Shown: piece by piece, positions 9,217 to 42,681 of the stretch | Numbering within the stretch: position 1 is the stretch's first letter | Layout of the letters: each line of letters begins with the position of its first letter | Assembly (NCBI RefSeq): GCF_029626025.1 | Contig: NZ_JARUBF010000001.1 | Location: forward strand, 3,782,001 to 3,846,000 | Length of the DNA stretch: 64,000 nt | Reading direction: 5' to 3' | DNA from: Solwaraspora sp. WMMD406 | GTDB taxonomy: Bacteria; Actinomycetota; Actinomycetes; Mycobacteriales; Micromonosporaceae | Position numbers and translations under genes: made by a program | Notes under the pieces: generated by a model | Database searches by the model: none | What the model was told of the DNA's origin: nothing | What the model saw: only the letters and a program-made list of their open reading frames with translations

Positions 9217-10029
9217 ATGCAACTGGACGGCAGGCCGGTGACGGTGGCCGAGGTGGGCGCCCTGGCGCTGCACAATCACGGCCACTTCACCACGATGACG
9301 GTCGCCGACGGGGGAGTGCGCGGTCTTCGGCTGCACCTGGACCGGCTCCGCGACGACTGTCGGACCGTGTTCGACAGCGACCTCGACCCCGACCGGGTAC
9401 GGACGCTGATCCGGGCCGCGCTCGCCGGGTATCCGCCTGGGCCGAGGATCGTCCGGGTGACCGTCTTCGACCCCGACGGCGGCCTGTCCGCGTCCGCCGG
9501 CCGGGCCGACCGGCCCCGGATCCTGGTCACCACCCGGCCGGCGGCCACCGAGACGCCACCTGCCCCGCTGCGGCTCGGTAGTCGCCGCTACCAGCGTGAC
9601 CTGCCGCAGGTGAAACACACCGGCCTGTTCGCGGCGGTGCACCACCGGCGGCGCGCCCAGTCGGCGGGCTTCGACGACGCGCTGTTCGTCGACTCGGACG
9701 GTCGGATCGGTGAGGGACCCACCTGGAACATCGGCGTCGTCCGCGACGGTGAGGTCGTCTGGCCGGCCGGTCCGTGCCTGCCCGGCGTAACCATGCGGCT
9801 GCTGACGGCGGCGGCCGGAACGATCGGTCTGCGCTGCCGGTCGACGCCGATCGCGGTCGAGGAGCTGGATCACCAGCACGGCGCGTTCGTCACCAACGCC
9901 GCGATCGGGCTGCGACCGGTCGCCGAGGTCGACGGCCGGCCGCTGGCCGCCACACCTGTCGTGGACCTCCTGGGCCGGGCGTACACCGACGTCGCGGCCG
10001 AACCGTTGGCGCCCGCCCCGCCGCCGTAG
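9217..10029 (+). CDS. pabC: Aminodeoxychorismate lyase-like, class IV aminotransferase
   Basis: A 270-residue fold-type IV PLP enzyme. The Schiff-base Lys133 lies in LPQVKHTG and the cofactor phosphate region in GPTWNIG (about 169-175). Located 88 bp after pabAB, it most likely releases pyruvate from aminodeoxychorismate to give p-aminobenzoate. A branched-chain or D-amino-acid transaminase is the alternative within this fold, but the context favours PabC. The ATG at 9217 follows a GGGGTCAGG stretch; the frame is open to 9103. The C-terminus ends in a Pro-rich tail. Confidence 0.85.
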   Translation: MQLDGRPVTVAEVGALALHNHGHFTTMTVADGGVRGLRLHLDRLRDDCRTVFDSDLDPDRVRTLIRAALAGYPPGPRIVRVTVFDPDGGLSASAGRADRPRILVTTRPAATETPPAPLRLGSRRYQRDLPQVKHTGLFAAVHHRRRAQSAGFDDALFVDSDGRIGEGPTWNIGVVRDGEVVWPAGPCLPGVTMRLLTAAAGTIGLRCRSTPIAVEELDHQHGAFVTNAAIGLRPVAEVDGRPLAATPVVDLLGRAYTDVAAEPLAPAPPP

Positions 10030-10228
10030 CGCCCCGCCGCCGTAGCCCCCCTTCCGCCGTAGCACTGTGCCACGCCGCGCCGGAGAGCCTTCTCGTGGCC
10101 GGCACATCGGTGAACCAGCCATGTTGGACCCAACTGCCTGGTCAGTCCATTCACGCTGGCCATCCTGGACCCGCCGTACAGGAGTGTCGATCACATGTGG
10201 TAAGCGCGCGCGCCGTAGGCTGGCCCGC

Positions 10229-10687
10229 ATGACCCCTGGGCACAGCCGTTTCGTGGGTGCGGGCGTCCGTCGAGGACGATCGGCGGCGATCTGTACGCAG
10301 GCGCGGCGTGACCGTTGGCATCGACGGTCCGCTGCCCTTCAAGCCTGGGTCGGAGTCAAGCCCAACCAGCCGCTGCTACCGGTGGTCCGCCGGGCGTTCC
10401 CGATCTTGGGGCACCTGCACCGATATCCGATCTACGAGCTCAAGATCGACAAGATGTTCGTGGCGCGGATCGGCGGTGGCGATCCGGCCGCGCTGTCGGT
10501 CCTTGGCGCGATCATGTCGATGAGCCCGGGGCTACGGCTCAGTACGGTGGCCGAAGGCATCGAAAACGACCGGCAGCGCGCCGAGTTGGCCGTCCTGGGC
10601 TGCGACTACGGTCAGGGCTATTCCCTGTCGAAGCCGGTGGACGAGATCGCTCTGCGGGCCCTGCTGCAGGCGTCGCCGGTACCGTAG
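10229..10687 (+). pseudogene. EAL-domain remnant (cyclic-di-GMP phosphodiesterase relic)
   Basis: From about 10410 the translation matches the C-terminal half of EAL phosphodiesterases: YELKIDKMFV, TVAEGIEN and GCDYGQGYSLSKP correspond to the usual LKID, VAEGVE and QGY-SKP motifs. The EAL signature and the N-terminal half of the barrel are missing, and the preceding sequence is unrelated. An ATG at 10229 could open a 152-residue reading frame, but the product could not be a phosphodiesterase. I call it a gene relic. Confidence 0.65.
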
Positions 10688-10817
10688 CGATCACCCGGCG
10701 CGGATGACTCTGTTCCCCGACCGGATCCAAGTGATCCGTACGTCTGCGGACGTCGGCCGCGGCACCGCATCCTCGAATCAGCAGGTAATTGTCGCAGCTG
10801 AACAGAGGGGACAGGCC

Positions 10818-11678
10818 ATGCCATTCGTGACGGTGGGGCGCGAGAACTCCGCCCCGATCGACCTCTACTACGAGGACCACGGCGCGGGCCAGCCGGTGGT
10901 GTTGATCCACGGCTTCCCGTACAGCGGTTCGTCCTGGGAAAAGGAGGTGGAGCCGCTGCTGTCCGCAGGTTACCGGACCATCACGTACGACCGACGTGGT
11001 TTCGGCAACTCCAGCCAGCCGGCGATGGGCTACGACTACGACACCTTCGCGGCGGATCTCGACGTCCTGATGCGCGAGCTCGACCTGCGGGACGCGATCC
11101 TGGTCGGGCACTCGATGGGGACCGGGGAAGTGATCCACTATCTTGGTGTCTACGGTTCGCAGCGGGTCAGCAAGGCCGTCGTCATCAGCCCGCTCGCCCC
11201 GTTCCTGTTGAAGACGCCGGACAATCCGGAAGGGGTGGACCAGAGCCTGTTCGACGGATTCAAGAACGCGGTGATCCAGGACCGGTTCGCCTACCTGACC
11301 AGCTTCGTCACGAACTTCTTCAGCTGGGACGAGAACAAGGGCAAACGGGTTAGCGAGGACGCGTTCAAGGCCCACTGGCAGGTGGGTGCCCGCGCGTCCG
11401 CGATCGCGACACTGCACTGTGTCGACGCGTGGCTCACCGATTTCCGACCGGATCTGCCCCGGATCGACGTCCCGCTCCTGATCATCCAGGGGGACAAGGA
11501 CGCCGTCCTGCCGTACGAGGTGACCGGAAAGCGCCTGGCGCCGATGGTGCCGGGCAGCCAGCTGGTCACGTTGCGCGGCGCGCCGCACGGGATTCCGTGG
11601 ACGCACGCCGACGAGATCAACAAGGCGATCATGGAGTTCATCGGTACCAGGACCATGGCGATGGCCGGTGCCCGATGA
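10818..11678 (+). CDS. Alpha/beta hydrolase, non-haem chloroperoxidase/arylesterase type
   Basis: A 286-residue soluble alpha/beta hydrolase. The nucleophile Ser99 is in GHSMGT, the acid Asp228 in QGDKDAVLP and the base His257 in GAPHGIPWTH. The oxyanion strand is LIHGFPYSGSSW. The arrangement matches cofactor-free haloperoxidase/esterase enzymes, which hydrolyse esters and can perhydrolyse short acids. The ATG at 10818 has AGAGGGGACAGG upstream. No signal peptide is present. It is monocistronic and ends in a strong bidirectional terminator. The real substrate is unknown. Confidence 0.88.
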   Translation: MPFVTVGRENSAPIDLYYEDHGAGQPVVLIHGFPYSGSSWEKEVEPLLSAGYRTITYDRRGFGNSSQPAMGYDYDTFAADLDVLMRELDLRDAILVGHSMGTGEVIHYLGVYGSQRVSKAVVISPLAPFLLKTPDNPEGVDQSLFDGFKNAVIQDRFAYLTSFVTNFFSWDENKGKRVSEDAFKAHWQVGARASAIATLHCVDAWLTDFRPDLPRIDVPLLIIQGDKDAVLPYEVTGKRLAPMVPGSQLVTLRGAPHGIPWTHADEINKAIMEFIGTRTMAMAGAR

Positions 11679-30606: not shown

Positions 30607-33195
30607 CTATGCCCCGGCCCGCCACGCACGCAGTGCCTGAACTGCTGCCACGGTGTGCGGGTGTTCGTCGCCGAGTATCCGCACTCGGTCGGTGACGACC
30701 TTTTCCTGGATGGTGATGGCGTCGGTGGTGCGGCCGGCCTGTCGGTAGGAGGCGGCGAGGTTGGCGTGGGCGGTGAGCGTGTTCGGGTGGTCGTGGCCGA
30801 GGAGCCGCACGGAGTCGGTGACGACCTTTTCCTGGATGGTGATGGCGTCGGTGGTGCGGCCGGCCTGTCGGTAGGAGGCGGCGAGGTTGGCGTGGGCGGT
30901 GAGCGTGTTCGGGTGGTCGTGGCCGAGGAGCCGCACCCGGTCGGTGACGACCTTTTCGAGGATGGTGATGGCGTCGGTGGTGCGGCCGGCTTGTCGGTAG
31001 GAGGCGGCGAGGTTGGCGTGGGCGGTGAGTGTGTTCGGGTGGTCGTGGCCGAGGAGCCGCACCCGGTCGGTGACGACCTTTTCGAGGATGGTGATGGCGT
31101 CGGTGGTGCGGCCGGCTTGTCGGTAGGAGGCGGCGAGGTTGGCGTGGGCGGTAAGTGTGTTCGGGTGGTCGTGGCCGAGGAGCCGCACCCGGTCGGTGAC
31201 GACCTTTTCGAGGATGGTGATGGCGTCGGTGGTGCGACCGGCCTGCCAGTAGGAGGTGGCGAGGCTGGCGTGGGCGGTGATCGTGTCCGGGTGGTCGTGG
31301 CCGAGGAGCCGCACCCGGTCGGTGACGACCTGTTCGAGGATGGTGATGGCGTCGGTGGTGCGGCCGGCCTGCCAGTAGGAGGTGGCGAGGTTGGCGTGGG
31401 CGGTGATCGTGTTCGGGTGGTCGTGGCCGAGGAGCCGCACGGAGTCGGTGACGACCTTTTCTTCGATGGTGATGGCGTCGGTGGTGCGGCCGGCTTGTCG
31501 GTAGGAGGCGGCGAGGTTGGCGTGGGCGGTGAGCGTGTCCGGGTGGTCGTTGCCGAGGAGCCGCACCCGGTCGGTGACGACCCGTTCCTCGATGGTGATG
31601 GCGTCGGTGGTGCGGCCGGCCTGCCAGTAGGAGGCGGCGAGTTCGGCGTGGGCGGTGATCGTGTTCGGGTGGTCGTCGCCGAGCAGCCGCACCGCGTCGT
31701 CGACTATTCGGTGCCAGTAGCCGATAGCGAGGGCGTGCAGTCCGGACCGCAGGAGGCTGGTGCCGGCCCAGTGCAGCAGTGGATGTCCGTCGGAATGCCA
31801 CAGCAGGTCACCACCGAGGCCAGCTAGGGTAGTGGTGTTGGTCCGCAGCACATCCACGAGTGTGGTGGTGGAGTAGTCGAGCTCTGGCCATAGTTGCAGC
31901 AGCGCGTCGGCGGCAGCCCGTACAACGGTTGCCGGGTCGATCGTGCTGGCTTCCTGGGTGGCGCGGGCGGTCAGCGCGTGGACCCGTACAGCTCGGGCTC
32001 CGTCAGCGGGGGCGTGGGTCAGCAGGCCGTAGCGGTGCAGTGTCCGTAGCGCCAGGGCCGACTGGTCGGCGGTGACGGCTCGGTCGACCTGCTCGGACAG
32101 GTAGGCGGTGACCGCAGCGGTTTTCCACAAGTCGTCGGGGTGGCCGTCGGGGCTGAGCATGGCGGCCAACGCCAGGGCTGGGCGGGCCAGCCCGACTGGA
32201 TTGGCCTGGTCGGCGGCGTCCAGGGCGAGTAGGAGCGTGACCGCGACTGGCCGGCCGTAGTCGTCGGGGTCGCTGTCGGCGGGCATCACCTCCGCCAACG
32301 GCGCGGCGGCGGTGTAGCGAGCCAGATACGCCGTGCACCCGATCGCCTGGTCGATCATGTAGGCCGTGGCGTGGGACAACGCCAGGGGCAGGTGCCCGAG
32401 GGCGGCGGCCAGGTCAGCGGCACCCGCGTCGAGCAGCCCTGGACGTTCGGCTTCGGTGAGCCGGGTGGTCAGATACGCCAGGGATTCGTCGGGGCTGTAC
32501 ACGCCGATGTCGATGCTTCGCCGGCCGCCGCTGGCCAGGGCGGCGTCGCGCCGGCGGGTCGTGGCGAGTGTCCAGCCGGTCGGCCGGTGCGGCGGCCACC
32601 AATCGCGCAGATGAGCCGGGTCGGTGATGTCGTCCAGGATGATCAGCCAGGTCCGGTCGGTGGTGTGCAGCCATTCGCGGAACGCGGCGGCGTCGGCGGC
32701 CGGATCCGTACCGTCGGCTCCCGGCACGCCGACCCGCAGCGCGGCCCGCGCGTAGCCGGTGATGATCTGTTCCGGGCTGCCTGCCAGCACCCACGCGACC
32801 AGATCTGTGTCCCGCTCGATGACGGCCTGGTGGGCGAACCACGCGGCCAGCTGTGACTTGCCGACCCCACCCTCACCGGCGAGGACTCGCGTACCGGTCC
32901 CGGCCGGGCGGGCGTCGCGTTGGGTCAACACCACGTCGGCTCCGTGATCACGGGCGTCCTGGATTCTCGCCCGGACACTGTCGCGGGGCTGGAACGCCGA
33001 CGCCATCGGCGGCGGCTGCCCCACCTGGACCGGCCAGGTCACCGCCGCCGCAGGGGCATAGTGGTGATGTTCGTGGAACTCGGGCCGGACGTCGCCCTGG
33101 ATGATGCCGGAGTTGGCGACACCCGCACGGTCGGCGTTCGCCGTACCGGAATCGGAGACGGTGGCTGCGGCGGGCGGATCGTGCGGTGCGGTCAC
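30607..33195 (-). CDS. STAND (NB-ARC) ATPase with C-terminal TPR repeats
   Basis: An 862-residue signalling ATPase. The N-terminal 65 residues are low-complexity, with GDVRPEFHEHHHY. The NB-ARC domain has the P-loop AGEGGVGKSQ (106-115), Walker B WLIILDDI (182-189), sensor LATTRRR and a winged-helix region to about 450. The C-terminus consists of eight complete 42-residue TPR-like repeats (497-832) plus a partial ninth, nearly identical to each other (core AGRTTDAITI). STAND proteins oligomerise when the repeat domain senses a ligand; many actinobacterial ones are suspected or proven in antiphage defence. No effector domain is fused here; the coupled small membrane protein is a candidate. GTG 33195 overlaps that gene's stop (GTGA). 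Confidence 0.85.
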   Translation of the reverse strand: MTAPHDPPAAATVSDSGTANADRAGVANSGIIQGDVRPEFHEHHHYAPAAAVTWPVQVGQPPPMASAFQPRDSVRARIQDARDHGADVVLTQRDARPAGTGTRVLAGEGGVGKSQLAAWFAHQAVIERDTDLVAWVLAGSPEQIITGYARAALRVGVPGADGTDPAADAAAFREWLHTTDRTWLIILDDITDPAHLRDWWPPHRPTGWTLATTRRRDAALASGGRRSIDIGVYSPDESLAYLTTRLTEAERPGLLDAGAADLAAALGHLPLALSHATAYMIDQAIGCTAYLARYTAAAPLAEVMPADSDPDDYGRPVAVTLLLALDAADQANPVGLARPALALAAMLSPDGHPDDLWKTAAVTAYLSEQVDRAVTADQSALALRTLHRYGLLTHAPADGARAVRVHALTARATQEASTIDPATVVRAAADALLQLWPELDYSTTTLVDVLRTNTTTLAGLGGDLLWHSDGHPLLHWAGTSLLRSGLHALAIGYWHRIVDDAVRLLGDDHPNTITAHAELAASYWQAGRTTDAITIEERVVTDRVRLLGNDHPDTLTAHANLAASYRQAGRTTDAITIEEKVVTDSVRLLGHDHPNTITAHANLATSYWQAGRTTDAITILEQVVTDRVRLLGHDHPDTITAHASLATSYWQAGRTTDAITILEKVVTDRVRLLGHDHPNTLTAHANLAASYRQAGRTTDAITILEKVVTDRVRLLGHDHPNTLTAHANLAASYRQAGRTTDAITILEKVVTDRVRLLGHDHPNTLTAHANLAASYRQAGRTTDAITIQEKVVTDSVRLLGHDHPNTLTAHANLAASYRQAGRTTDAITIQEKVVTDRVRILGDEHPHTVAAVQALRAWRAGA
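30700..31707 (-). repeat. Eight tandem 126-bp repeats encoding TPRs
   Basis: The repeats are near-identical at DNA level, including synonymous positions, which indicates recent expansion or ongoing recombination. Differences concentrate at few codons (for example Arg/Trp in SYRQ/SYWQ, Leu/Gln/Glu in ITILEK-type ends). Unit number is likely to vary between strains. Confidence 0.85.
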
Positions 33196-33646: not shown

Positions 33647-33932
33647 GGGACGGCCCGCCGAGGGGGGCGGGCCGTCCTGGTTGGTATCGCCGCTGGTACG
33701 GCTACGGCAGCGTGTCCAGCACGAGGCTGCCGATCCCGGAGCCGAGCGCCTCGGCGCGGTTGCTGTCGGAGACGCCGTCGGCGCGGTTCGTCAGCACGGC
33801 GACCACGATCCCGTCGTCGGGGTACATCTGCAGGTAGGCCGTCGACCCGGTGGCGCCGCCGTTCTTGCCGACCCGCAGGTGTCCGTCCTCGGTGTTGATC
33901 AACCAGCCGTAGGCGTAGCCCCATCCGGTGTC
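33647..33932. repeat. Left 286-bp direct repeat
   Basis: Aligns without gaps to 40659-40944 (constant offset 7012) with about 18 mismatches by eye, roughly 94% identity. It covers the terminator and the last 77 codons of the serine-hydrolase gene. Similarity ends abruptly at both edges. Confidence 0.85.
33648..33677. terminator. Hairpin terminator (left copy)
   Basis: GGACGGCCCGCC, 6-nt loop, GGCGGGCCGTCC: a 12-bp perfect stem just beyond the truncated serine-hydrolase stop. The stem is also conserved in the right copy. Confidence 0.7.
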
Positions 33933-33940
33933 TAACCAAA
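33702..33940 (-). pseudogene. 3' fragment of a serine-hydrolase (beta-lactamase-fold) gene
   Basis: The last about 77 codons match the C-terminus of the complete protein encoded at 40714-42681 (DTGWGYAYGW, HLRVGKNGGATGS, YLQMYPDDGIVVAV). The fragment retains the stop codon and terminator but lacks the catalytic Ser/Lys part. Upstream of 33940 the sequence is unrelated. The open frame continues to 34121 by chance. Confidence 0.8.
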
Positions 33941-33978
33941 TGGGTGGAGCGCAGCGGTCAGCTCCGCCTCGGTTGGTT
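33934..33978. terminator. Hairpin at the left junction of the island
   Basis: AACCAA ... GGTGGAGC, 10-nt loop, GCTCCGCC ... TTGGTT forms a two-part stem with one G-U pair. It lies downstream of the NUDIX stop (minus strand) and starts 2 bp after the direct repeat ends. It may be the NUDIX-operon terminator or the end of the inserted DNA. Confidence 0.5.
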
Positions 33979-34024: not shown

Positions 34025-34480
34025 TCAGGCCGTTTGAGGGATCAAGCGGGCAGCCTCGCTGATCAGAGCAGGGAGTTCGGCGGGCGTGTGAAGGGTCGCC
34101 AGGTCCTCGACGGGTATCCACTTCGCGCCAGCGACTTCGTCGACTTGGGCCGTAAGGTTGCCGCCGGTGGCTTGGCAGACGTAGACGAAGTCGATGTGTC
34201 GGTGTGGTCCGACCTTGCGGTCTTCGATGTCCATCTCGATGATGGCGTACGGGCTTGGGATACTGCGTACGGCGGGGTGCCGGAATGGCGGTGGGCCGAG
34301 GATGTCGGCGATGATCCCGGTTTCCTCGTGCACCTCGCGGAGTGCCGCTTCGGCGGGGTCTTCGTTGGGGTCGATGTGCCCGCCGGGGTACAGCCAGAGG
34401 TCGATCTTGTTGTGGTGCACGAGCAGGACGTGACCGTCGTCGTTGAAGACGATGGCCGAGCTGGTGAAATGACGGATCAT
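34025..34480 (-). CDS. NUDIX hydrolase
   Basis: A 151-residue NUDIX enzyme with a complete Nudix box at about 33-55 (GGHIDPNEDPAEAALREVHEETG, read as G-x5-E-x7-REVHEETG). The family hydrolyses nucleoside diphosphates linked to another moiety, for example nucleotide sugars. It starts with ATGA overlapping the DegT stop and is the last gene of a three-gene operon. Given the neighbours it may release or police a nucleotide sugar; the substrate cannot be read from the sequence. A frame extension to 34528 is not needed. Confidence 0.9.
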   Translation of the reverse strand: MIRHFTSSAIVFNDDGHVLLVHHNKIDLWLYPGGHIDPNEDPAEAALREVHEETGIIADILGPPPFRHPAVRSIPSPYAIIEMDIEDRKVGPHRHIDFVYVCQATGGNLTAQVDEVAGAKWIPVEDLATLHTPAELPALISEAARLIPQTA

Positions 34481-35598
34481 GCTTGGGTATCTCCCTGGGC
34501 GATCTGGGCCACGCGGTCGGCCATCCACCCTACGGTCGCGTCCGTCATTCCGGGGTGCACTGGGAGTTGAACGGTGGTCGTGGCGAGGTGTTCAGCGTTG
34601 GGGCACTGGCTGGCATAGGGCTTAAAGATGGGCTGGTGGTACAGCGGCCGGTACCGCCACCGGATCGAGTCGGGTGGAAGGCCTGCGGCTTCGAACCCTG
34701 CGACGACCTGCGGGATGCGGTCCTTGATGGTGAGGACGAGGTTGTAATAGTTCGGCTTGTCCTGGACTCCGTACGGCAGCTCCCGTAACAGGCCGCCTGG
34801 GGGTAGCGCGGCGAGGACGCGTTGGGCGTTGCGGCGGCGTCGGTCGAGTTGACCGTCGAGCATTTTGAGCCGGCGCAGGCCGATAGCGGCCAGAGGGGCG
34901 GCGAGCTTGTAGTTGACACCGTGGGCGGTGCCATGCAGATGGCCGAGGTGGGTGTACCAGTCGATGCGTTCGCCAAGTTCCTCGTCGTCGGTGAGGACGA
35001 AGCCTCCCTCGCCTGTGGACAAGAGCTTGCGGTCGTGGGTGGAGAGGCAGCCGACGGCACCGTGGGTGCCGGCGAACTGGTTGCCGACTCGGGTGCCGTG
35101 GGCTTGGCACGCGTCCTCGATGACAGGCACTCCGGCTTGGGCGAGTAGGTCTGCGCTGGCTCGCTCGTCGTTGGGGTAGCCCCAGAGCGGCAGGGAGATG
35201 GCGGCGCGGGTGCGTTCGGTGAGCTTGCGCTGGAGATCGGCGGGATCGAGGGCAAGGGAATCGGGCAGGGTGTCGACGGGGACGGGTGTGGCTCCGCACG
35301 TGAGCACCGGCATGGCGGTCGGCAGGGGTGCGGTGGCCGGGACGAGGACTTCCGCGCCGGGGCGGACGCCGAGGGCGATGAGCGCGGCGTGCAGCGCGGA
35401 GGTTCCCGAGTTGACGGCGATGGCGCGGCGAGCGCCGAAGCGCTTGGCGAGCGCGTGTTCGTAGATTGCGAGGACCGGGGCACCGCCGGAGAGGCGGCCG
35501 TCGTCGAGCGCGGCGCGGATCTCGTCCAGTTCGCCGCAGGGTGAAGGGGAGTACCGGTCGTCGACGGGGTTGAGGACGTCGTGGCTGCTAGTTGTCAT
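34477..35598 (-). CDS. DegT/DnrJ/EryC1/StrS-family aminotransferase
   Basis: A 373-residue PLP-dependent sugar or cyclitol aminotransferase. Lys191 in STHDRKLLSTGEGG forms the Schiff base; Asp162 in VIEDACQAHG contacts the pyridine nitrogen. VNSGTSALHAAL (62-73) binds the phosphate. These enzymes convert keto-sugars on nucleotides, or keto-cyclitols, to amino forms. The ATG overlaps the dehydrogenase stop by 11 bp. With the dehydrogenase making the ketone and this enzyme the amine, the operon could synthesise an amino sugar or aminocyclitol. Confidence 0.92.
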   Translation of the reverse strand: MTTSSHDVLNPVDDRYSPSPCGELDEIRAALDDGRLSGGAPVLAIYEHALAKRFGARRAIAVNSGTSALHAALIALGVRPGAEVLVPATAPLPTAMPVLTCGATPVPVDTLPDSLALDPADLQRKLTERTRAAISLPLWGYPNDERASADLLAQAGVPVIEDACQAHGTRVGNQFAGTHGAVGCLSTHDRKLLSTGEGGFVLTDDEELGERIDWYTHLGHLHGTAHGVNYKLAAPLAAIGLRRLKMLDGQLDRRRRNAQRVLAALPPGGLLRELPYGVQDKPNYYNLVLTIKDRIPQVVAGFEAAGLPPDSIRWRYRPLYHQPIFKPYASQCPNAEHLATTTVQLPVHPGMTDATVGWMADRVAQIAQGDTQA

Positions 35599-36676
35599 AG
35601 GTCAGCACCACCCTGATGGTTTCCTCTGGGCGCTGGGCGATCAGCTGGTACGCCTTGGCCGCCTCGCTGAAGGGGAAGCGGTGAGATACCAGGCTGTCGA
35701 CATGCACCTGCCCACTGATGACCAAGTCCCGGGCGGAGGCGTTGAGTCGCGGCAGGTCCCAGGCGGGGTGGGCGCGCTGTGGGCAGCCGTTCACGGTCAT
35801 GGAGGAGACCAGGGTGATGCGGTTGCGGTGGTACTCCTCGCCGAGTCGTAGGCCGTCCTGATCGCCGTGGTAGGAGGCGACAGTCGCGACTCGGCCGCCT
35901 ACCCGGACGCAGCGGATCGCCTCGTGCAGGCCGCGGTAGGAGCCGGAGGCTTCGATGGCCACGTCCGCGCCCTGCGGGCTGCAGAGTTTACGGACCTGCA
36001 CGGCGACATCGTCGTCAGTGGCGGCGTGTACGGGTGTGATGCCGAGGGAGTCGGCGGTGTCCAGACGCAGCGGGTAGTGGTCCACTCCGATGACCTTGGC
36101 AGCTCCGGCGAGTCGCGCGAGTTGGCCGGCGAGAAGGCCGACAGTGCCGAGCCCGACTACGACGACGATATCGCCAAGGCGTACCTCAGCGTCGTGTACG
36201 CCCCCGAGGGCGACCCGCGCCAGGATGAAGAAGATAGCGCGTTCGGCTTCGGCGCCGGTCGGCAACCGGCTTGCGAGGGCAGCGTCGGCCGGAACGATGT
36301 GCGTGGTCCCATGCGGGCGGTCGAGGGTGACGAGGTCGCCGACGCTTACTTTGCCGACAGCGGCCTCGCCGACGGCGGTGACCCGCGCGATGGTCTCGTA
36401 GCCCGGCGCTACTGGGAAGTCTCGGCCGGCGCCGTCGAGGAAGATGCGTCGATGCGGGTCCCAAGACCGGTGTAGCGCGGCGGCGTCGCCGGCCATCCAG
36501 GCCATCTCGGTGCCGTGGCTGATGCCGGAGAGGACCGATTCGGCGTAGACGTCGTCGGGGCCGAGCGCGGGCAAATGCTCGCGAACGATCTCGACCTGAC
36601 CCGGTCCTGTGATCATGATCCTGCTGCAGGGAGGCTCGTCGGCAGTGCGTGGTTGTACGACTTCGGGTTCGGTCAT
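35588..36676 (-). CDS. Medium-chain dehydrogenase/reductase, BchC-like, lacking catalytic-zinc Cys
   Basis: A 362-residue MDR. The usual zinc-ligand motif GICGTD is replaced by SGISHGTEM (50-58) and GHE by PGYE (91-94), the pattern of the zinc-independent bacteriochlorophyllide dehydrogenase-like group. The Rossmann motif VVGLGTVGLLAG is intact near 167-178. It would oxidise a secondary alcohol with NAD(P). ATG 36676 has GGAGAG upstream; the frame extends to 36805 without coding character. First gene of the minus-strand operon with DegT and NUDIX. Confidence 0.85.
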   Translation of the reverse strand: MTEPEVVQPRTADEPPCSRIMITGPGQVEIVREHLPALGPDDVYAESVLSGISHGTEMAWMAGDAAALHRSWDPHRRIFLDGAGRDFPVAPGYETIARVTAVGEAAVGKVSVGDLVTLDRPHGTTHIVPADAALASRLPTGAEAERAIFFILARVALGGVHDAEVRLGDIVVVVGLGTVGLLAGQLARLAGAAKVIGVDHYPLRLDTADSLGITPVHAATDDDVAVQVRKLCSPQGADVAIEASGSYRGLHEAIRCVRVGGRVATVASYHGDQDGLRLGEEYHRNRITLVSSMTVNGCPQRAHPAWDLPRLNASARDLVISGQVHVDSLVSHRFPFSEAAKAYQLIAQRPEETIRVVLTYDN

Positions 36677-36971
36677 GATCTCTCCAGGGTTGGTAGACGG
36701 CGGAGGCGCGTGCTGGCGTCTTCGTCGCCGAAGGCGTCGAACTCGCAAAACGCGAGGCTGGCCACGGCGGTAGAGGTGTGACGAACTCTGATCGTCCAAA
36801 TCCATCGCCGTAGTTGTCTGTGTGACTAGCCTGCGGGTCCGGACCGTCCCCTGACGATGCGTGGACGTCCTAGTGTTGTCCGAGTTTCAGCTCGTCTGCG
36901 CTCGCCGTCGCCTACTACGCTGCCAACTGCGACTATGACACTCGGTGCATAGCTAGCCTGGGGGCAATCCC
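36677..36971. promoter_or_regulatory. Divergent promoter region of the island
   Basis: This 295-bp spacer separates the two divergent island operons. It is less GC-rich than average. I see no unambiguous promoter or palindrome; a weak CTGCGA-N17-TAGCTA pair precedes the XRE gene. As the XRE protein is encoded next to it, this is the natural place for its operator. Confidence 0.4.
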
Positions 36972-39900
36972 GTGGAGACGGTACGGCGGTGGACGGGCCG
37001 CGAGGCAAGAGCATTGCGCCTTGCTCTGCGTATGAGCGTGCGCGGCTTCGCGGAACACCTCGGCGTCAATCCGGCGGCCATCTCCAATTGGGAGAAGCGT
37101 GGCAGCGCGACCCGCATGCGCTACGAGACCCAGCAGATGCTCGATGTCGATCTGGCACGGTCGCCGATCGAGGTCAAGCAGCGGTTTGCCCAAGCGCTCA
37201 AGGCGTCAGTGGCCGCAGGCCCGAACGGCGCGCCCGTACTTGCCGACGGTGGCGCCACGTCCGCAAAGCCAGATCTTGGCACCCGTTCCAGGGAACGGAC
37301 CAAGGCCATCCTCGCGGCGCTCAGTAGGCAGCAGCCCGATGACCTCGTCTACACACCTCCGGCCGACGTCCAGCGGCAGATTGCGGACCTCCTCGTCTCG
37401 ACCGCTCGCGTCTACCTGGTCACCGGCCCCCCAGGTTGTGGCAAGACCAGCTTCGTCCGCCATCTGGCGTCTCATGTTCCCGGAGTGGATTTCCAACTGC
37501 TGAGCGCAGACTCGTGGACCGAGGACATCGACCTAGCGCGGGAGATCCTCCGCTACGGCTCTCTGCCGGCGGGCGTGGATCCGCTGTTGACCCTTGAAGA
37601 CGAGAGCCAGAGCCTGTGCAGGCCGCTGCTCGTTCTCATCGACGGTCCGCAGTCCCGCGCCGTCGTGGACAAGGTCTGCCGGCAACTCGACGGCACGCTG
37701 CGGCAGGTGCTCTCGGTCAACTTGAGGTTCCTTCTCGTACTGCGTACACCGCCGGATGTCGAACTCGCGCCCTACCCTGTCCTGGCCGCAGCGGTCATGC
37801 ACGGTCAGGGTCGCGGTGTCGGCCCGTCGCTGCGTCTGGACCGCTGGGATGCCGGTACAGCCCGGAACGTGTGGAACGCGCAGCGGCATGCGAACGAGCC
37901 CCCGTTCGACGCCCTGCCCGCGCGGATCCGCAACTTGGTCCGCCTGCCGCTGTACATGAGCCTCATCCGGGCCGCCAAGTCGACTGAGCCATTTGGGCAA
38001 GCCAACGCCTACCGGCTTGTGGACTTCTGCGTCGCCTCGATCCTGAAGGCAGCGGGCCTGGACGTCGAGCGCGCGACGGCGGATCTGACCGCACTGGCGC
38101 GACGGCAACTCGCTGCGGCATGGACGCATCACCTGCTTCCTACGATCGAAGACGACCCGCCGGGTAGTGCCGATGGCCTCTCTACGTCGTCGGTCGCCAG
38201 ACTCGTGCGGTCCGGACCGTTCGGCAGCCTTACATTCCAGCACGACGTCATTCGTGAGTACCTTTTCGCGCGGTGGCTCGCCCAGCACATCGAGTCCCAC
38301 GGACGCTCGGCCGTCACGATCGAGTTGCTCAACGACCTGGCCGCTCGCACCAACACATCAGCTGACCTGCGAGGCGTCCTGGAGTTCTTCTTGCAAGGCT
38401 TGGATGCGGCATCACCGGAGCTGCTGGCCGCCGTCGCGCAGTCACCGTCGATCAACCTCACCGCAACGTTGCCGCTGATGCTCGACCTCACCGGCGAGAG
38501 TGCGTCCTTTGCCACGGCCGAGGTGCTGCGCGCGTGTGCCTCCCGATGCCTGCACGACAACGGCCTGCCCCTCGCCAGAGCCCTCCTGCGGACCAGCGCA
38601 GCCGTCACGGCACTCGGCGCGGAGTATCCCCGATGGATGCTGCGGGTTCTACGCCGATTCGGCCCGGCCGTCTGGTCCGACATCGTGGCGCGCGTCGAGA
38701 CGCAGCTGCCTATCGCGGCCGCCCACGACTTCGTCCGCCTTACGCAGCTCGACATCGTAGAGGACGCGGTGTTCCTTGCCCGACACTTCTACGTCTTCCT
38801 CACCGCTGACGACAGTACCTCCCATCAGCTGAAAACACTCCTGGCCCATCCCGACTGGCGAGCCCGCGCTGCCCTCGCCGAGGGGATCCGAGCAGGCCAG
38901 GTGATCCCCCGGCATACCGTGATCTCGATCATGGAGTCGTTGACCGCAGACCGCGATTACAAAGTCCGCGCCGCCGCCGCCGAAGCCGCTGGCCGGTCGA
39001 CCGCGCCCGGTCTGGAACACCTACTGTCCACGCTCCTCGACGACCGCAACTGGCACGTCCGCGAACGTCTTCTCCAAGGGCTGTCCTTCAGAGTTGGGGA
39101 CGAGGACTCGGCCGCCGACCTTGTCTTCCGGCGTCAAGAAGCATGGCGGACCGGCCCTCGAAACGTCCGAGTCGCCGCCCAGCGACTTCTTCTTGAACGC
39201 GGCAAGAGGCCTCTGCAAGACGAGGACTCCTCCCGCAGCGCTTTGTTCGGCCTGCTCCGCGAGATCCGTACAGGCACCCTGCGGCTACCCACGAACGTCC
39301 AGTCAGCTCTGATCCGTCAAGGCGTCGCCTCGAAGGACTGGGTCGTACGCACCGAAGCCAACCTGCTCGAACACCACGGCACAGCCACAAGCGTTGCCGC
39401 AGGTCTCGGCAAGGAAGCCTTCCGGCGTCTTCGAGGCGGATGCGCCCTTCAGGTCGCGCTCGACGTCCGGGACCTTGACCACGCGATCACCGTCGGGCGG
39501 GCCGTAGCCAGCGCGGGAGTGCAATTCATCGAGATCGGCGACCCGCTCATCAAGAGCGTCGGCGTCCAGGCCATCAGCGCGGTCAAGCAGCGAATCCCTG
39601 GTGCATGGATCGTCGCCGAGATGATGTCCGCAGACTGGGGACGCGACCAGGTGGTTCTCGCGACCGAGGCCGGAGCCGACGTCGTACTACTCATCGGACC
39701 CGCCAGCATCGCCAGCGTGTCCGCAGCAGCCGAAGCGAGCAGACGGCTGGGCGTCCCCATTGTGATCGACGTGCCCGAGGGCCGGCTGGTCCAAGGCTGG
39801 GTGCAGGACATGGAACGCGCGGGAGTCGACGGCTTCGCCATCACCACGAACATCGACTTGGGCGTGGCCGGCTCTCACCCTCTCGACCAGGCACAATTCA

Positions 39901-40088
39901 TCAGGTCGTGGACGAGGCTGCCGGTCGCTGTCTCCGGTGGTTTCGAACCTACCGACCTTGAGGCTAGGCGGCGACGATCCTGGGACATCCTCGTCGTCGG
40001 TCGCGGAGTCACCGATTCCCTGGATCCCGCCGTCGCCGCACGGGACCTCGCGGCTTCGATCGAACTCACCGAAGGACACAGCTCGTGA
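36972..40088 (+). CDS. XRE-STAND ATPase-HEAT-HUMPS fusion protein
   Basis: A 1038-residue fusion. An XRE helix-turn-helix (about 12-60, LRMSVRGFAEHLGVNPAAISNWEKRG in pieces) precedes a STAND/AAA ATPase with P-loop TGPPGCGKTS (151-160) and Walker B LLVLIDGPQ (219-227). HEAT-like helical repeats span about 480-815. Residues about 824-1033 match the 3-hexulose-6-phosphate synthase/orotidine-phosphate decarboxylase (HUMPS) barrel: LQVALDVRDLDHA, IEIGDPLIKSVG, AEAGADVVLL-like ATEAGADVV, and VAVSGGFEP. The catalytic D-x-K-x-x-D becomes E883-M-M885-S-A-D888, losing Asp and Lys, so it is probably a ligand-binding sensor. GTG 36972 follows GGGGG. Its stop overlaps the GNAT start. Confidence 0.82.
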   Translation: METVRRWTGREARALRLALRMSVRGFAEHLGVNPAAISNWEKRGSATRMRYETQQMLDVDLARSPIEVKQRFAQALKASVAAGPNGAPVLADGGATSAKPDLGTRSRERTKAILAALSRQQPDDLVYTPPADVQRQIADLLVSTARVYLVTGPPGCGKTSFVRHLASHVPGVDFQLLSADSWTEDIDLAREILRYGSLPAGVDPLLTLEDESQSLCRPLLVLIDGPQSRAVVDKVCRQLDGTLRQVLSVNLRFLLVLRTPPDVELAPYPVLAAAVMHGQGRGVGPSLRLDRWDAGTARNVWNAQRHANEPPFDALPARIRNLVRLPLYMSLIRAAKSTEPFGQANAYRLVDFCVASILKAAGLDVERATADLTALARRQLAAAWTHHLLPTIEDDPPGSADGLSTSSVARLVRSGPFGSLTFQHDVIREYLFARWLAQHIESHGRSAVTIELLNDLAARTNTSADLRGVLEFFLQGLDAASPELLAAVAQSPSINLTATLPLMLDLTGESASFATAEVLRACASRCLHDNGLPLARALLRTSAAVTALGAEYPRWMLRVLRRFGPAVWSDIVARVETQLPIAAAHDFVRLTQLDIVEDAVFLARHFYVFLTADDSTSHQLKTLLAHPDWRARAALAEGIRAGQVIPRHTVISIMESLTADRDYKVRAAAAEAAGRSTAPGLEHLLSTLLDDRNWHVRERLLQGLSFRVGDEDSAADLVFRRQEAWRTGPRNVRVAAQRLLLERGKRPLQDEDSSRSALFGLLREIRTGTLRLPTNVQSALIRQGVASKDWVVRTEANLLEHHGTATSVAAGLGKEAFRRLRGGCALQVALDVRDLDHAITVGRAVASAGVQFIEIGDPLIKSVGVQAISAVKQRIPGAWIVAEMMSADWGRDQVVLATEAGADVVLLIGPASIASVSAAAEASRRLGVPIVIDVPEGRLVQGWVQDMERAGVDGFAITTNIDLGVAGSHPLDQAQFIRSWTRLPVAVSGGFEPTDLEARRRRSWDILVVGRGVTDSLDPAVAARDLAASIELTEGHSS

Positions 40089-40564
40089 TTATCGCGCCGC
40101 TCACGGTAGACCGGATTCCCGACCTGGAGACACTGCTGGCCCTAGGAGAGCCGTACGTCAGGCTGCGAGGCTCATCGGACTACTGGCTGTATGCCACGCT
40201 GTTCGCCAACACCTGCCCACTCGCCATCATCGACGGGCAGGTCGTCGGCAGCGTGATCGCTTTCCGAAGCCAGGTCGACCCATCACAGATCTATCTGCAA
40301 GACGTGATAACGCACCCCAGCCACCGTCGTCAAGGGGTCACACGGGCGCTCGTGGAGGAGGTTCATCGTCAAGGCGTTCTCTGGGGATGCCGGCGTCTGT
40401 TCCTCACCTCGGAACCCGACAACCACGCCGCGCACAGCGCATGGCTCGGCTTGGGCTTTAGCAACCGCTCAGGTGACACGACCGAGCAGGGCGTCTCCGT
40501 GATCTACGACTTCAAGGGGCCGGGGAAGCATCGTGCCGTGTATGAGCGACCGATCGGCAGCTAG
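40085..40564 (+). CDS. GNAT acetyltransferase
   Basis: A 159-residue GCN5-type N-acetyltransferase. The acetyl-CoA pyrophosphate loop is HPSHRRQGVTRALVEEV (about 79-95), with the preceding strand IYLQDVIT and the terminal NHAAHSAWLGLGF. GTG 40085 overlaps the fusion-protein stop (GTGA). It could acetylate the amine produced by the DegT pathway, a protein, or an antibiotic. The last residues (GKHRAVYERPIGS) are atypical and may be read-out into junction DNA. Confidence 0.86.
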   Translation: MIIAPLTVDRIPDLETLLALGEPYVRLRGSSDYWLYATLFANTCPLAIIDGQVVGSVIAFRSQVDPSQIYLQDVITHPSHRRQGVTRALVEEVHRQGVLWGCRRLFLTSEPDNHAAHSAWLGLGFSNRSGDTTEQGVSVIYDFKGPGKHRAVYERPIGS

Positions 40565-40658: not shown

Positions 40659-40944
40659 GGGACGGCCCGCCGAGGGTGGCGGGCCGTCCTGGTTGGTATC
40701 GCCGCTGGTACTGCTACGGCAGGGTGTTCAGCACGAGGCTGCCGATCTCGGTGCCGAGCACCTCGGACCGGTTGTTGTCGGCGACCCCGTCGGCGCGGTT
40801 CATCAACACGGCGACCACGATCCCGTCGTCGGGGTACATCTGCAGGTAGGCCGTCGATCCGGTGGCGCCGCCGTTCTTGCCGACCCGCAGGTGTCCGTCC
40901 TCGGTGTCGATCGACCAGCCGTAGGCGTACCCCCATCCGGTGTC
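40659..40944. repeat. Right 286-bp direct repeat
   Basis: Partner of 33647-33932. It forms the native 3' end and terminator of the complete serine-hydrolase gene. Confidence 0.85.
40660..40689. terminator. Hairpin terminator (right copy)
   Basis: GGACGGCCCGCC, loop GAGGGT, GGCGGGCCGTCC: 12-bp perfect stem after the serine-hydrolase stop at 40714 (minus). It also faces the end of the GNAT operon, so it serves both directions. Confidence 0.7.
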
Positions 40945-42681
40945 CACCCACATGGCGTCGAGCGAGTCGCCGGAGACGATCTGCTCGTCGACCAGCTTGT
41001 CGGCGAAGCGCGCCAGGTCGGCCACCGACGATTCCATGCCGCCGCCGAGGACCTTCCAGCTCACCTCGTCACCGCCGTACTCGTCGTTGCTGCCGTCGTA
41101 CAGGGTGGTCCGCCGTACCGAGGTGTCCGACAGATCCTCCGGACGCAGCGTGCCCAGGTCGTACGCGGCGGTCAGCTCCGTCTCGACCAGTTCCGCCACC
41201 GGCGTGCCGGTCGCTCCCTCCAGCGCCGCGCCGAGAATGGTGTAGCCGTGCGTGCTGTAGTGCGACGTGCCGACCGGGCAGACCAGATCACTGTCCCAGA
41301 AGGCGGCACCGGCGGCGGTGGCGTTGGCGTACCAGGAGGTAGCCAGGGTGTCGTCCTCCGCCTGCCACTGGGCGACGTCGGCCGCGTCCGCGCCGTCGTC
41401 GGCCTCCGTACCCGCGTAATGCCGTACGCAGGACCGGTTGCTGGCCACCTGCTCCACCGTGTATGCGTGATGGTTGGGAAGCCCCGGCACGTGATCCCGG
41501 ACGTCGTCGTCGGGTTCGATCTGCCCGTCCTCGGCCAGCCGCATGGTGAGTACGCCACCGACGCCCTTGGCCACCGAGGCGATCCGCATCACGTGCCCCG
41601 AGTCCAGCCACACGTCGTCGTCGACGTTGGCGTGCCCGAACCCGCGCAGGTAGAGGAACTTGCCGTCCTGCATGACCGCCACCGACACGCCGGGCATGTC
41701 CAGGCTGTCCATCTCGGACTGGATCAGGTTGTCCACGGAGCGGCGCAGCTTCCAGCCGGGCCGGTCGGAGTTCTGCCGCCAGATCCCGGCGTAGCGGGTG
41801 CCGTCGGCCGTCTCGTACCGTTCGAAGTTGATCACCCGGTAGCCCTCGTCGGCGTACCGGTGCCACCAGTTGACGTACTCCTGGCGGGTCAGATCACTGC
41901 GTACCCACCAGCCGCGATGGTTGACGTTCTCCACCCAGATGCCGGCGTACCGCTGGCCGGCGGGGGTGATCGCCGAGTCGACGACCAGCGACCGGTAGAC
42001 CCCCTGGTAGGCGTCGACCGCGTCCTGATACTCGGTCCGGGTGATCCCGGCGAGCAGCTTCCAGGCCAGGTTCTCGGCGTTGTCCACCCAGGTCACCGAG
42101 TAGCGGGTGCCGGCACCGGTCGGGTAGATGTCGACGTCGACCGGCAACCGGGTGCGCCGCTGCTCCTTGTAGTAGGCGAGGTACTCGTCGCCGGTCAGGT
42201 TGTACTTCATCGACCAGCCGTAGCCTTCGACGTTGCGTACCCAGGCGGCGGCGTAGTAGCGAACGTCGTCCTGGACGTAGGTCTCGAAGTCGACGAGCCG
42301 CATCCGGTCGTCCGCCGCCTTGACGAACTCGGTGTCGAACTCGGCCTTGGTCAGCTTGGTCCGCACCAGCCAGCCCCGGCCGTCGAGGTTGCGCTGGAAC
42401 ACCGCGCCGATGCGCCGCTCCTTGCCGTCCATGTCCACGTCGAGGTCGATGACCAGGTAACCGGCGGCAGCGTACTCGTCGAATCTGACCTGGAAGTCGG
42501 CGGGCGTCATGTCCCGTAACGACACCCAGCCGACCTCGTCGGGGTCGAAGGCCGCCGACGGCAGACCGGGATGGGCCGCCGCCGGGGTGACGGCGATGCC
42601 GGCCAGCGCGACCGCCGTCGTGACGGCGGCCACCGAGGCGAGTACGCGGCGAAACGGGCCGCGTGGGGGTCCGGATCTCAT
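40714..42681 (-). CDS. Secreted serine hydrolase: beta-lactamase fold with N-terminal WxxN repeat domain
   Basis: A 655-residue secreted protein. Signal peptide about 1-36 (VLASVAAVTTAVALAGIAVTPAAA). Residues about 45-320 carry at least five repeats around R-Y-A-x-I-W-x-x-N-x-x-x-x-x-W, resembling the N-terminal domain of polyglycine hydrolases. The class C beta-lactamase-like domain has Ser369-V-A-Lys372 (SxxK), a Tyr motif HYSTHGY and VGKNGGA as the KTG-like box. It probably acts on peptides or cell-wall material. Its 3' end is the right direct repeat of the 7-kb island and appears again at 33702. Confidence 0.87.
   Translation of the reverse strand: MRSGPPRGPFRRVLASVAAVTTAVALAGIAVTPAAAHPGLPSAAFDPDEVGWVSLRDMTPADFQVRFDEYAAAGYLVIDLDVDMDGKERRIGAVFQRNLDGRGWLVRTKLTKAEFDTEFVKAADDRMRLVDFETYVQDDVRYYAAAWVRNVEGYGWSMKYNLTGDEYLAYYKEQRRTRLPVDVDIYPTGAGTRYSVTWVDNAENLAWKLLAGITRTEYQDAVDAYQGVYRSLVVDSAITPAGQRYAGIWVENVNHRGWWVRSDLTRQEYVNWWHRYADEGYRVINFERYETADGTRYAGIWRQNSDRPGWKLRRSVDNLIQSEMDSLDMPGVSVAVMQDGKFLYLRGFGHANVDDDVWLDSGHVMRIASVAKGVGGVLTMRLAEDGQIEPDDDVRDHVPGLPNHHAYTVEQVASNRSCVRHYAGTEADDGADAADVAQWQAEDDTLATSWYANATAAGAAFWDSDLVCPVGTSHYSTHGYTILGAALEGATGTPVAELVETELTAAYDLGTLRPEDLSDTSVRRTTLYDGSNDEYGGDEVSWKVLGGGMESSVADLARFADKLVDEQIVSGDSLDAMWVDTGWGYAYGWSIDTEDGHLRVGKNGGATGSTAYLQMYPDDGIVVAVLMNRADGVADNNRSEVLGTEIGSLVLNTLP

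Follow-up and report, generated by a model that had tools for sequence, protein, structure and literature searches.

Described STAND systems and the core protein

STAND proteins share a plan of N-terminal effector, central NTPase and C-terminal sensor (PMC12169576), and some of them regulate transcription: MalT answers maltotriose (PMC4381067), and IniR responds to trehalose and is dedicated to one operon (PMC5760070). In 'System 4' of Kaur et al. 2020, STAND NTPases and an OMP-decarboxylase-like domain are among the domains fused to actinobacterial caspases (PMC7159879). Here we analysed a 64,000-nucleotide stretch of Solwaraspora sp. WMMD406 (the window), in which one + strand gene (36972..40088) encodes a protein of 1038 amino acids, referred to below as the core. 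It joins an XRE-type helix-turn-helix (HTH), a STAND-like NTPase, HEAT repeats and a barrel of the HPS (3-hexulose-6-phosphate synthase) type that is altered at its catalytic site, and the presence of all four in one polypeptide, first put forward in a preliminary description of the locus, was confirmed. From its sequence, we consider it moderately likely that the core is a ligand-gated STAND-type switch.

Like MalT and IniR, the core is an ATPase of several domains that couples a small-molecule input, shown or inferred, to DNA binding as its output (PMC4381067, PMC5760070). It differs from both in that its presumed sensor is an enzyme-derived TIM barrel, its HTH is N-terminal and XRE-type, and a GNAT N-acetyltransferase gene is linked to it. 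The HTH of MalT is located C-terminally. System 4 proteins have an N-terminal caspase or cyclase, and a relative of the core in Nocardia jiangxiensis (L069) resembles them in that a caspase is followed by STAND-like, HEAT and barrel parts, whereas the window core has an N-terminal HTH and no caspase (PMC7159879). Moreover, System 4 has a 5' EACC1 transmembrane gene, while the constant partner of the core is the downstream GNAT gene and its 5' gene is a divergent dehydrogenase; the pocket, the HTH form and GNAT are not described in the parts of that paper on System 4 (PMC7159879). The effector-NTPase-sensor plan with a swappable N-terminus is also found in bNACHT and Avs proteins (PMC12169576, PMC10907252), from which the core differs by a C-terminus that is conserved instead of variable. 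In a full-text search judged by titles and abstract starts, with most subscription papers outside its scope, neither the fusion itself nor its HTH form, GNAT partner, operator or pocket was found described. The only related published statement found was a phrase about caspases that carry an OMP-decarboxylase-like domain (PMC7159879).

The order of domains in the core is output, NTPase, solenoid and barrel. The XRE-type HTH, as output domain (residues about 1-80; 36972..37211, +), matches HTH_3 below its cut-off. It is followed by a STAND/NACHT-like NTPase (residues about 131-570; 37362..38681, +), a HEAT alpha-solenoid (residues about 571-815; 38682..39416, +; HEAT_2 4.4e-12) and the HPS/KGPDC-like barrel (residues 818-1030; 39423..40061, +). 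Alignment of the NTPase located the P-loop (GPPGCGKT), Asp224, Arg258, LPLYM and FxHDVxREY; we take the last to be the NACHT winged-helix motif. Walker A positions G53, G56, G58 and K59 (alignment numbering) are invariant in 19/19 members. The nSTAND3 profile is matched by 18 and Pfam NACHT by 15 of these 19, weakly (E up to 0.1) and with the window protein below both cut-offs, and because these matches are weak we use the wording 'STAND-like'. A general AAA profile scored narrowly above its cut-off. Profile comparison with an NB-ARC protein also encoded in the window gave an alignment limited to the P-loop. A full-length structure model had a pLDDT of 76, and the rows shown of its structure comparison were all barrel matches.

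The altered barrel and its pocket

The barrel has the HPS/KGPDC-type (beta/alpha)8 fold of the OMPDC superfamily; comparison with PDB structures bore out the earlier assignment of the C-terminal region as OMPDC-like. We transferred KGPDC numbering to the core through alignment with a PDB structure and obtained the equivalences D11 = D831, E33 = E854, D62 = E883, K64 = M885, D67 = D888, H136 = T958, R139 = I961, T169 = S988 and R192 = R1011. Thus E883-M-M885-S-A-D888 (39618..39635, +) stands in place of the catalytic D62-x-K64-x-x-D67, and T958 (codon 39843..39845, +) in place of the catalytic H136. Compared with HxlA and KGPDC, the core barrel carries K64->Met, H136->Thr, D62->Glu and Asp at the T36 equivalent, and it sits behind an NTPase and HEAT repeats. 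Residue 1011 is Arg in the core barrel and KGPDC, and mostly Gly in HPS rows. K64 and H136 presumably do the chemistry of HPS and KGPDC, and we assume catalytic roles for the KGPDC positions equivalent to 883, 885 and 958; K64A and H136A mutants are named in PDB titles.

The alteration is constant among the intact cores. Glu, Met and Thr occupy the D62, K64 and H136 places in 18/18 representative barrels and 26/26 intact cores, whereas enzyme-like rows keep D in 37/37, K in 37/37 and H in 36/36 (one gap). Consistent with the preliminary description, which had noted D-x-K-x-x-D changed to E-M-M-S-A-D with the phosphate GG kept, the intact motif occurs in 0/26 intact cores, and the phosphate-binding G989, G990 and G1010 are present in 18/18 barrels and wherever the enzyme-like rows have a residue at these positions. 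The representative set omits L021, L058, L066 and L067 (near-copies or truncated), and L100-L111, found after the 18-barrel alignment, were checked at key residues only. The enzyme-like set (n = 37) consists of 3 plasmid hxlA genes, 19 phylum matches with loci and 15 order-search loci; it omits the partial L035, L036, L042, L053 and L054, and L051 was dropped from the tree and the pocket-conservation test.

Conservation is concentrated around the presumed ligand site: 14/14 pocket positions are invariant among the 18 barrels, compared with 51/199 other positions (Fisher P 2e-8). Of the 213 positions, six carry one fixed residue in STAND barrels and another in enzyme-like rows (857, 883, 885, 893, 907 and 958); three of these (883, 885, 958) belong to the catalytic site, and residues 883-894 are nearly invariant in STAND barrels. 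The core scores 107.5 bits against the HPS equivalog domain TIGR03128, whose cut-off is 200. Across 20 intact STAND rows, barrel identity to the window is 55-92% and HEAT identity 28-86%; barrel identity exceeds that of all other domains except for the HTH in the close clade and in Nocardia rows. Among eight close sequences, dN/dS was 0.10 for the HTH, 0.13 for the barrel, 0.19 for residues 341-570, 0.22 for the NTPase, 0.25 for HEAT and 0.42 for the linker. In a tree, the 18 STAND barrels together with L025, an NTPase-less relative, form one side of a branch with 100/100 support and a length of 3.43; the position of L025 relative to the 18 has a support of 48/43, and long-branch warnings apply. 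Judged by these alignments, the domain is an HPS-derived barrel without the HPS catalytic residues but with an invariant pocket.

N-terminus, partner gene and the proposed switch

The N-terminus is XRE-type in 23 rows of a 26-row core tree, some of them much diverged. The other three rows differ: L109 has a different HTH (HTH_31 9.3e-12), L069 starts with a caspase that carries HG and DCCYSG motifs (Peptidase_C14 2.2e-05), and in L061 no N-terminal domain was recognised. They are scattered in the tree, in which some forks are weak, and each keeps the rest of the protein. L025 in genome G010 (9217-10818, -) is an XRE-HEAT-barrel protein without NTPase and without GNAT, and its pocket motif reads A-V-T-A-I-D. 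As a separate observation, the same XRE-type N-terminus occurs on other C-terminal parts, helical and TPR-like by eye, in L007, L009, L010, L011 and L014; in L014 it is joined to a domain that by eye resembles the formylglycine enzyme.

The GNAT gene (40085..40564, +) overlaps the stop codon of the core gene, and a GNAT gene lies on the same strand 3' of the barrel in 36/37 loci, remnants and near-copies counted, the exception being L025. A conserved neighbour does therefore exist; of the companions that the preliminary description had offered for survey, GNAT travels with the core, and DegT, alcohol dehydrogenase (ADH) and NUDIX are not fixed. SDYW, TSEPxN and KGxG are common to at least 95% of 33 GNATs longer than 140 amino acids (three shorter ones omitted). 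The nearest curated profiles, all matched below cut-off, are small-molecule acetyltransferases (EctA 2.9e-08; AAC(3)-I 3.1e-06). Core-less relatives of this GNAT (51-57%) occur in G004, G042 and G045, one of them adjoining an APH-type kinase. At L152 (8169-16643, -), a core-less GNAT has an APH-type kinase as its neighbour, and genes for a 5'-3' exonuclease, a formyltransferase and DegT lie farther along.

Upstream of the core we found a candidate operator, GTCCTAGT-N3-GTCCGAGT (36867..36885, +), a direct repeat of 11-bp period that starts 105 nucleotides before the start codon. Ten of 21 upstream regions contain the window-clade consensus of this repeat, at 79-117 nucleotides from the start, and in each of them at most 1 of 300 shuffles scored as well; the motif was derived from the window clade, so the window and L103 are not independent, and the gene start of the L024 remnant was guessed. 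The caspase, other-HTH, no-HTH and NTPase-less relatives lack the motif, as do L062, L075, L077, L078 and L111, in which HTH identity to the window is 32-48%. A blind offset scan for an 11-bp repeat was weak (offset 11 best in 5/14 lineages), and the claim is carried by the motif search. The 7.16-Mb genome holds the pattern once without mismatch and at three places with two mismatches (reversed control, 10). The candidate repeat fits local autoregulation by the HTH, and, as for IniR, the single perfect match suggests dedication to one operon (PMC5760070).

Considering the kept pocket, the lost catalytic residues and the near-constant GNAT together, we suggest that the core probably reads out a small phosphorylated molecule. 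A metabolite resembling a pentulose or hexulose phosphate, or a nucleotide or aminosugar phosphate, would bind the pocket, with its phosphate held at the GG (989-990) and GR (1010-1011) elements. Binding would relieve HEAT-mediated autoinhibition and lead to nucleotide exchange and oligomerisation of the NTPase. Because D888 matches a residue that we take to be donated to the neighbouring site in HPS/KGPDC dimers, its region presumably being the dimer-interface side, binding may also work through barrel pairing. The XRE head, at the direct repeat, would control its own operon (core and GNAT) and possibly the divergent gene, the caspase head of L069 would cleave proteins, and GNAT would complete a detoxification or feedback loop by acetylating the ligand or one of its precursors. 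In its fuller form, which we hold only tentatively, the proposal is that an aldolase became the receptor of an NLR-like switch, so that one pocket leads to XRE-driven transcription or caspase proteolysis, and that the molecule sensed, which may be a sugar phosphate or nucleotide with an amine group, is also the one on which GNAT acts. The earlier view of the barrel as a sensor is supported in part: the altered HPS barrel, the invariant pocket and the C-terminal STAND sensor position speak for it, and DegT/ADH/NUDIX as fixed companions are not supported.

What bacterial STAND proteins respond to is difficult to establish. In the core, the presumed sensor derives from an enzyme whose substrates are known and whose ligand complexes have been solved; given this ancestry and the fixed substitutions, the input can be sought in a short list of phosphometabolites. 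The core would be a clear example of an enzyme that became a receptor and of an NLR-like protein with a small molecule as its input, and it would tie a candidate chemistry, that of GNAT, to the signal; if the proposal is true, an NLR-like protein surveys an intracellular chemical, self-made or foreign.

Several observations weigh against a ligand-gated STAND switch. STAND membership is based on sub-threshold profile matches, so that STAND-like is the apt term, and the HTH has a low pLDDT in the full-length model. L025 means that an NTPase-less switch may exist. The candidate operator is missing from 11 of the 21 upstream regions; it is absent from L105, whose HTH is 81% identical to that of the window, and from L076 (59%; 24/300 shuffles as good), while L063 has it at an HTH identity of 59%, no better than L076. 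The list of 14 pocket positions was picked from knowledge of KGPDC once conservation had been seen. Finally, a conserved pocket fits a new enzymatic activity equally well, with E883, E854, D888 and D962 as residues that could still bind a metal.

This last point leads to the alternative that fares best, although we judge it unlikely: the barrel would be an effector enzyme with new chemistry, its modified aldolase- or decarboxylase-like site, activated by the NTPase, would have a sugar phosphate or nucleotide as substrate, and the HTH or caspase would be a second output. Its pocket is strictly conserved and retains acidic, metal-site-like residues, and PMC7159879 reads as effectors the domains, an OMP-decarboxylase-like one among them, that are joined to a caspase in a two-gene system of actinobacteria. 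However, the barrel lies at the usual sensor end, behind a solenoid. Both residues that we assume to do the chemistry in HPS and KGPDC are moreover Met and Thr in all intact cores.

An infection sensor, in which the core recognises a protein of a phage, or else a nucleotide or sugar that the phage makes, triggers transcription or caspase cell death and uses GNAT as an accessory effector, appears quite improbable. Such a role would suit the patchy distribution (in a barrel-profile search at E up to 1e-30, 21/354 genomes of the own family and 1/7 in the genus), the decayed and insertion-broken copies, the caspase head of L069 and two Nocardia loci near GmrSD or OLD-like and UvrD genes. Residues 409-470 also match the NCBIfam profile of the antiphage NACHT protein EruA weakly (1.4e-4, 20 bits, cut-off 1000), and the window NUDIX gene matches the PADLOC candidate family PDC-S07 (4.5e-10). 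By contrast, the four PADLOC matches of the core itself are all limited to the P-loop (best 1.8e-4), a pattern scan of viral contigs found no relative, and phages gave only three matches, of 26-29% identity and all in unannotated records. Few parts of the protein are as conserved as the putative sensor, in contrast to variable defence sensors; a C-terminal domain that is conserved and not hypervariable fits a fixed chemical ligand and argues against a sensor of variable pathogen proteins (PMC10907252). That the barrel is merely a scaffold or dimerisation module sensing no ligand seems very improbable: D888 and its neighbours lie on what we take to be the dimer-interface side of HPS/KGPDC and 883-894 hardly vary, but conservation centres on the pocket, including the phosphate-site glycines and T958 on another strand.

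Distribution, neighbouring genes and mobility

When 100 relatives were searched together with the own genome, full-length relatives were found at 83, 51 and 47% identity. In a GTDB contig scan, full alignment gave at least 15 loci, 14 of them with a core, from Micromonospora, Rugosimonospora, Pilimelia, Streptomyces, Nocardia and one metagenome-assembled genome; its patterns were HTH and HEAT stretches only, so the locus list is partial. Beyond the family, the barrel-profile search matched 9/397 genomes of the order at E < 1e-90 and 29 at 1e-8, the remainder being enzyme-like or fragments, and 1/394 genomes of the class, which was the own genome. At phylum level 45/396 genomes matched; the 44 besides the own score far lower, mostly in frames of 430-550 amino acids, and all 19 examined have an intact D-x-K-x-x-D. 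No stand-alone barrel of the altered type was seen, the order-search matches at E < 1e-90 lying in frames of at least 1034 amino acids except that of G010 (533 amino acids). Plasmids gave 150 records, all below 60% identity and, among the 15 matches listed, mostly annotated hxlA. Decayed or insertion-broken cores occur at L079, L080, L101, L104, L112, L113 and L114, mostly with the barrel end and GNAT left.

Divergent from the core in the window are a zinc-type ADH (35588..36805, -), a DegT/DnrJ-type aminotransferase (34477..35598, -) and a NUDIX hydrolase (34025..34528, -). We rejected these three genes as fixed companions: DegT and ADH are present in only 7/37 loci, within the stretches fetched, and a dNK-ADH-DegT-NUDIX operon without core occurs in 4/100 relatives (G024, G026, G033 and G037; dNK partial in G024). 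This core-less operon is conserved in the four loci concerned (L137, L138, L139 and L140). In L137 and L139 an unrelated HTH-like gene, recognised by eye, is divergent to it, which suggests that the core may occupy the regulator's place in the window.

Genes near the core in other loci encode thymidylate-synthase-like, carbamoyltransferase, epimerase, deoxynucleoside kinase, methyltransferase, formamidase-like and permease proteins. An apparent nucleotide/sugar theme runs through these loci, although such families are common. At L075 (3802-7322, -), two thymidylate-synthase-like genes (Pfam) are divergent from the core, with epimerase, carbamoyltransferase and kinase-like genes; at L078 (11507-12568, +), a gene similar to the L075 ones is also divergent from the core. 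These two neighbourhoods may represent a nucleotide-modification pathway.

A 297-nucleotide direct repeat, with copies 93% identical, brackets the 7-kb NUDIX-DegT-ADH-core-GNAT segment; the left copy is at 33647..33943 and the right at 40659..40955, and a beta-lactamase-like gene (40714-42681) has its 3' end within the right copy. Homology to this gene ends at 40718-40740 in G001, G002 and G003, which keep the gene without the adjoining segment, and none of 20 relatives has a long match to the left flank. The NUDIX-DegT-ADH-core-GNAT unit looks acquired. Beside the segment lies a second STAND-type protein, the NB-ARC protein (30607-33195, -). Long matches to its 5' part and flank are missing from the 20 relatives, and its TPR portion matches TPR_12 in nine stretches.

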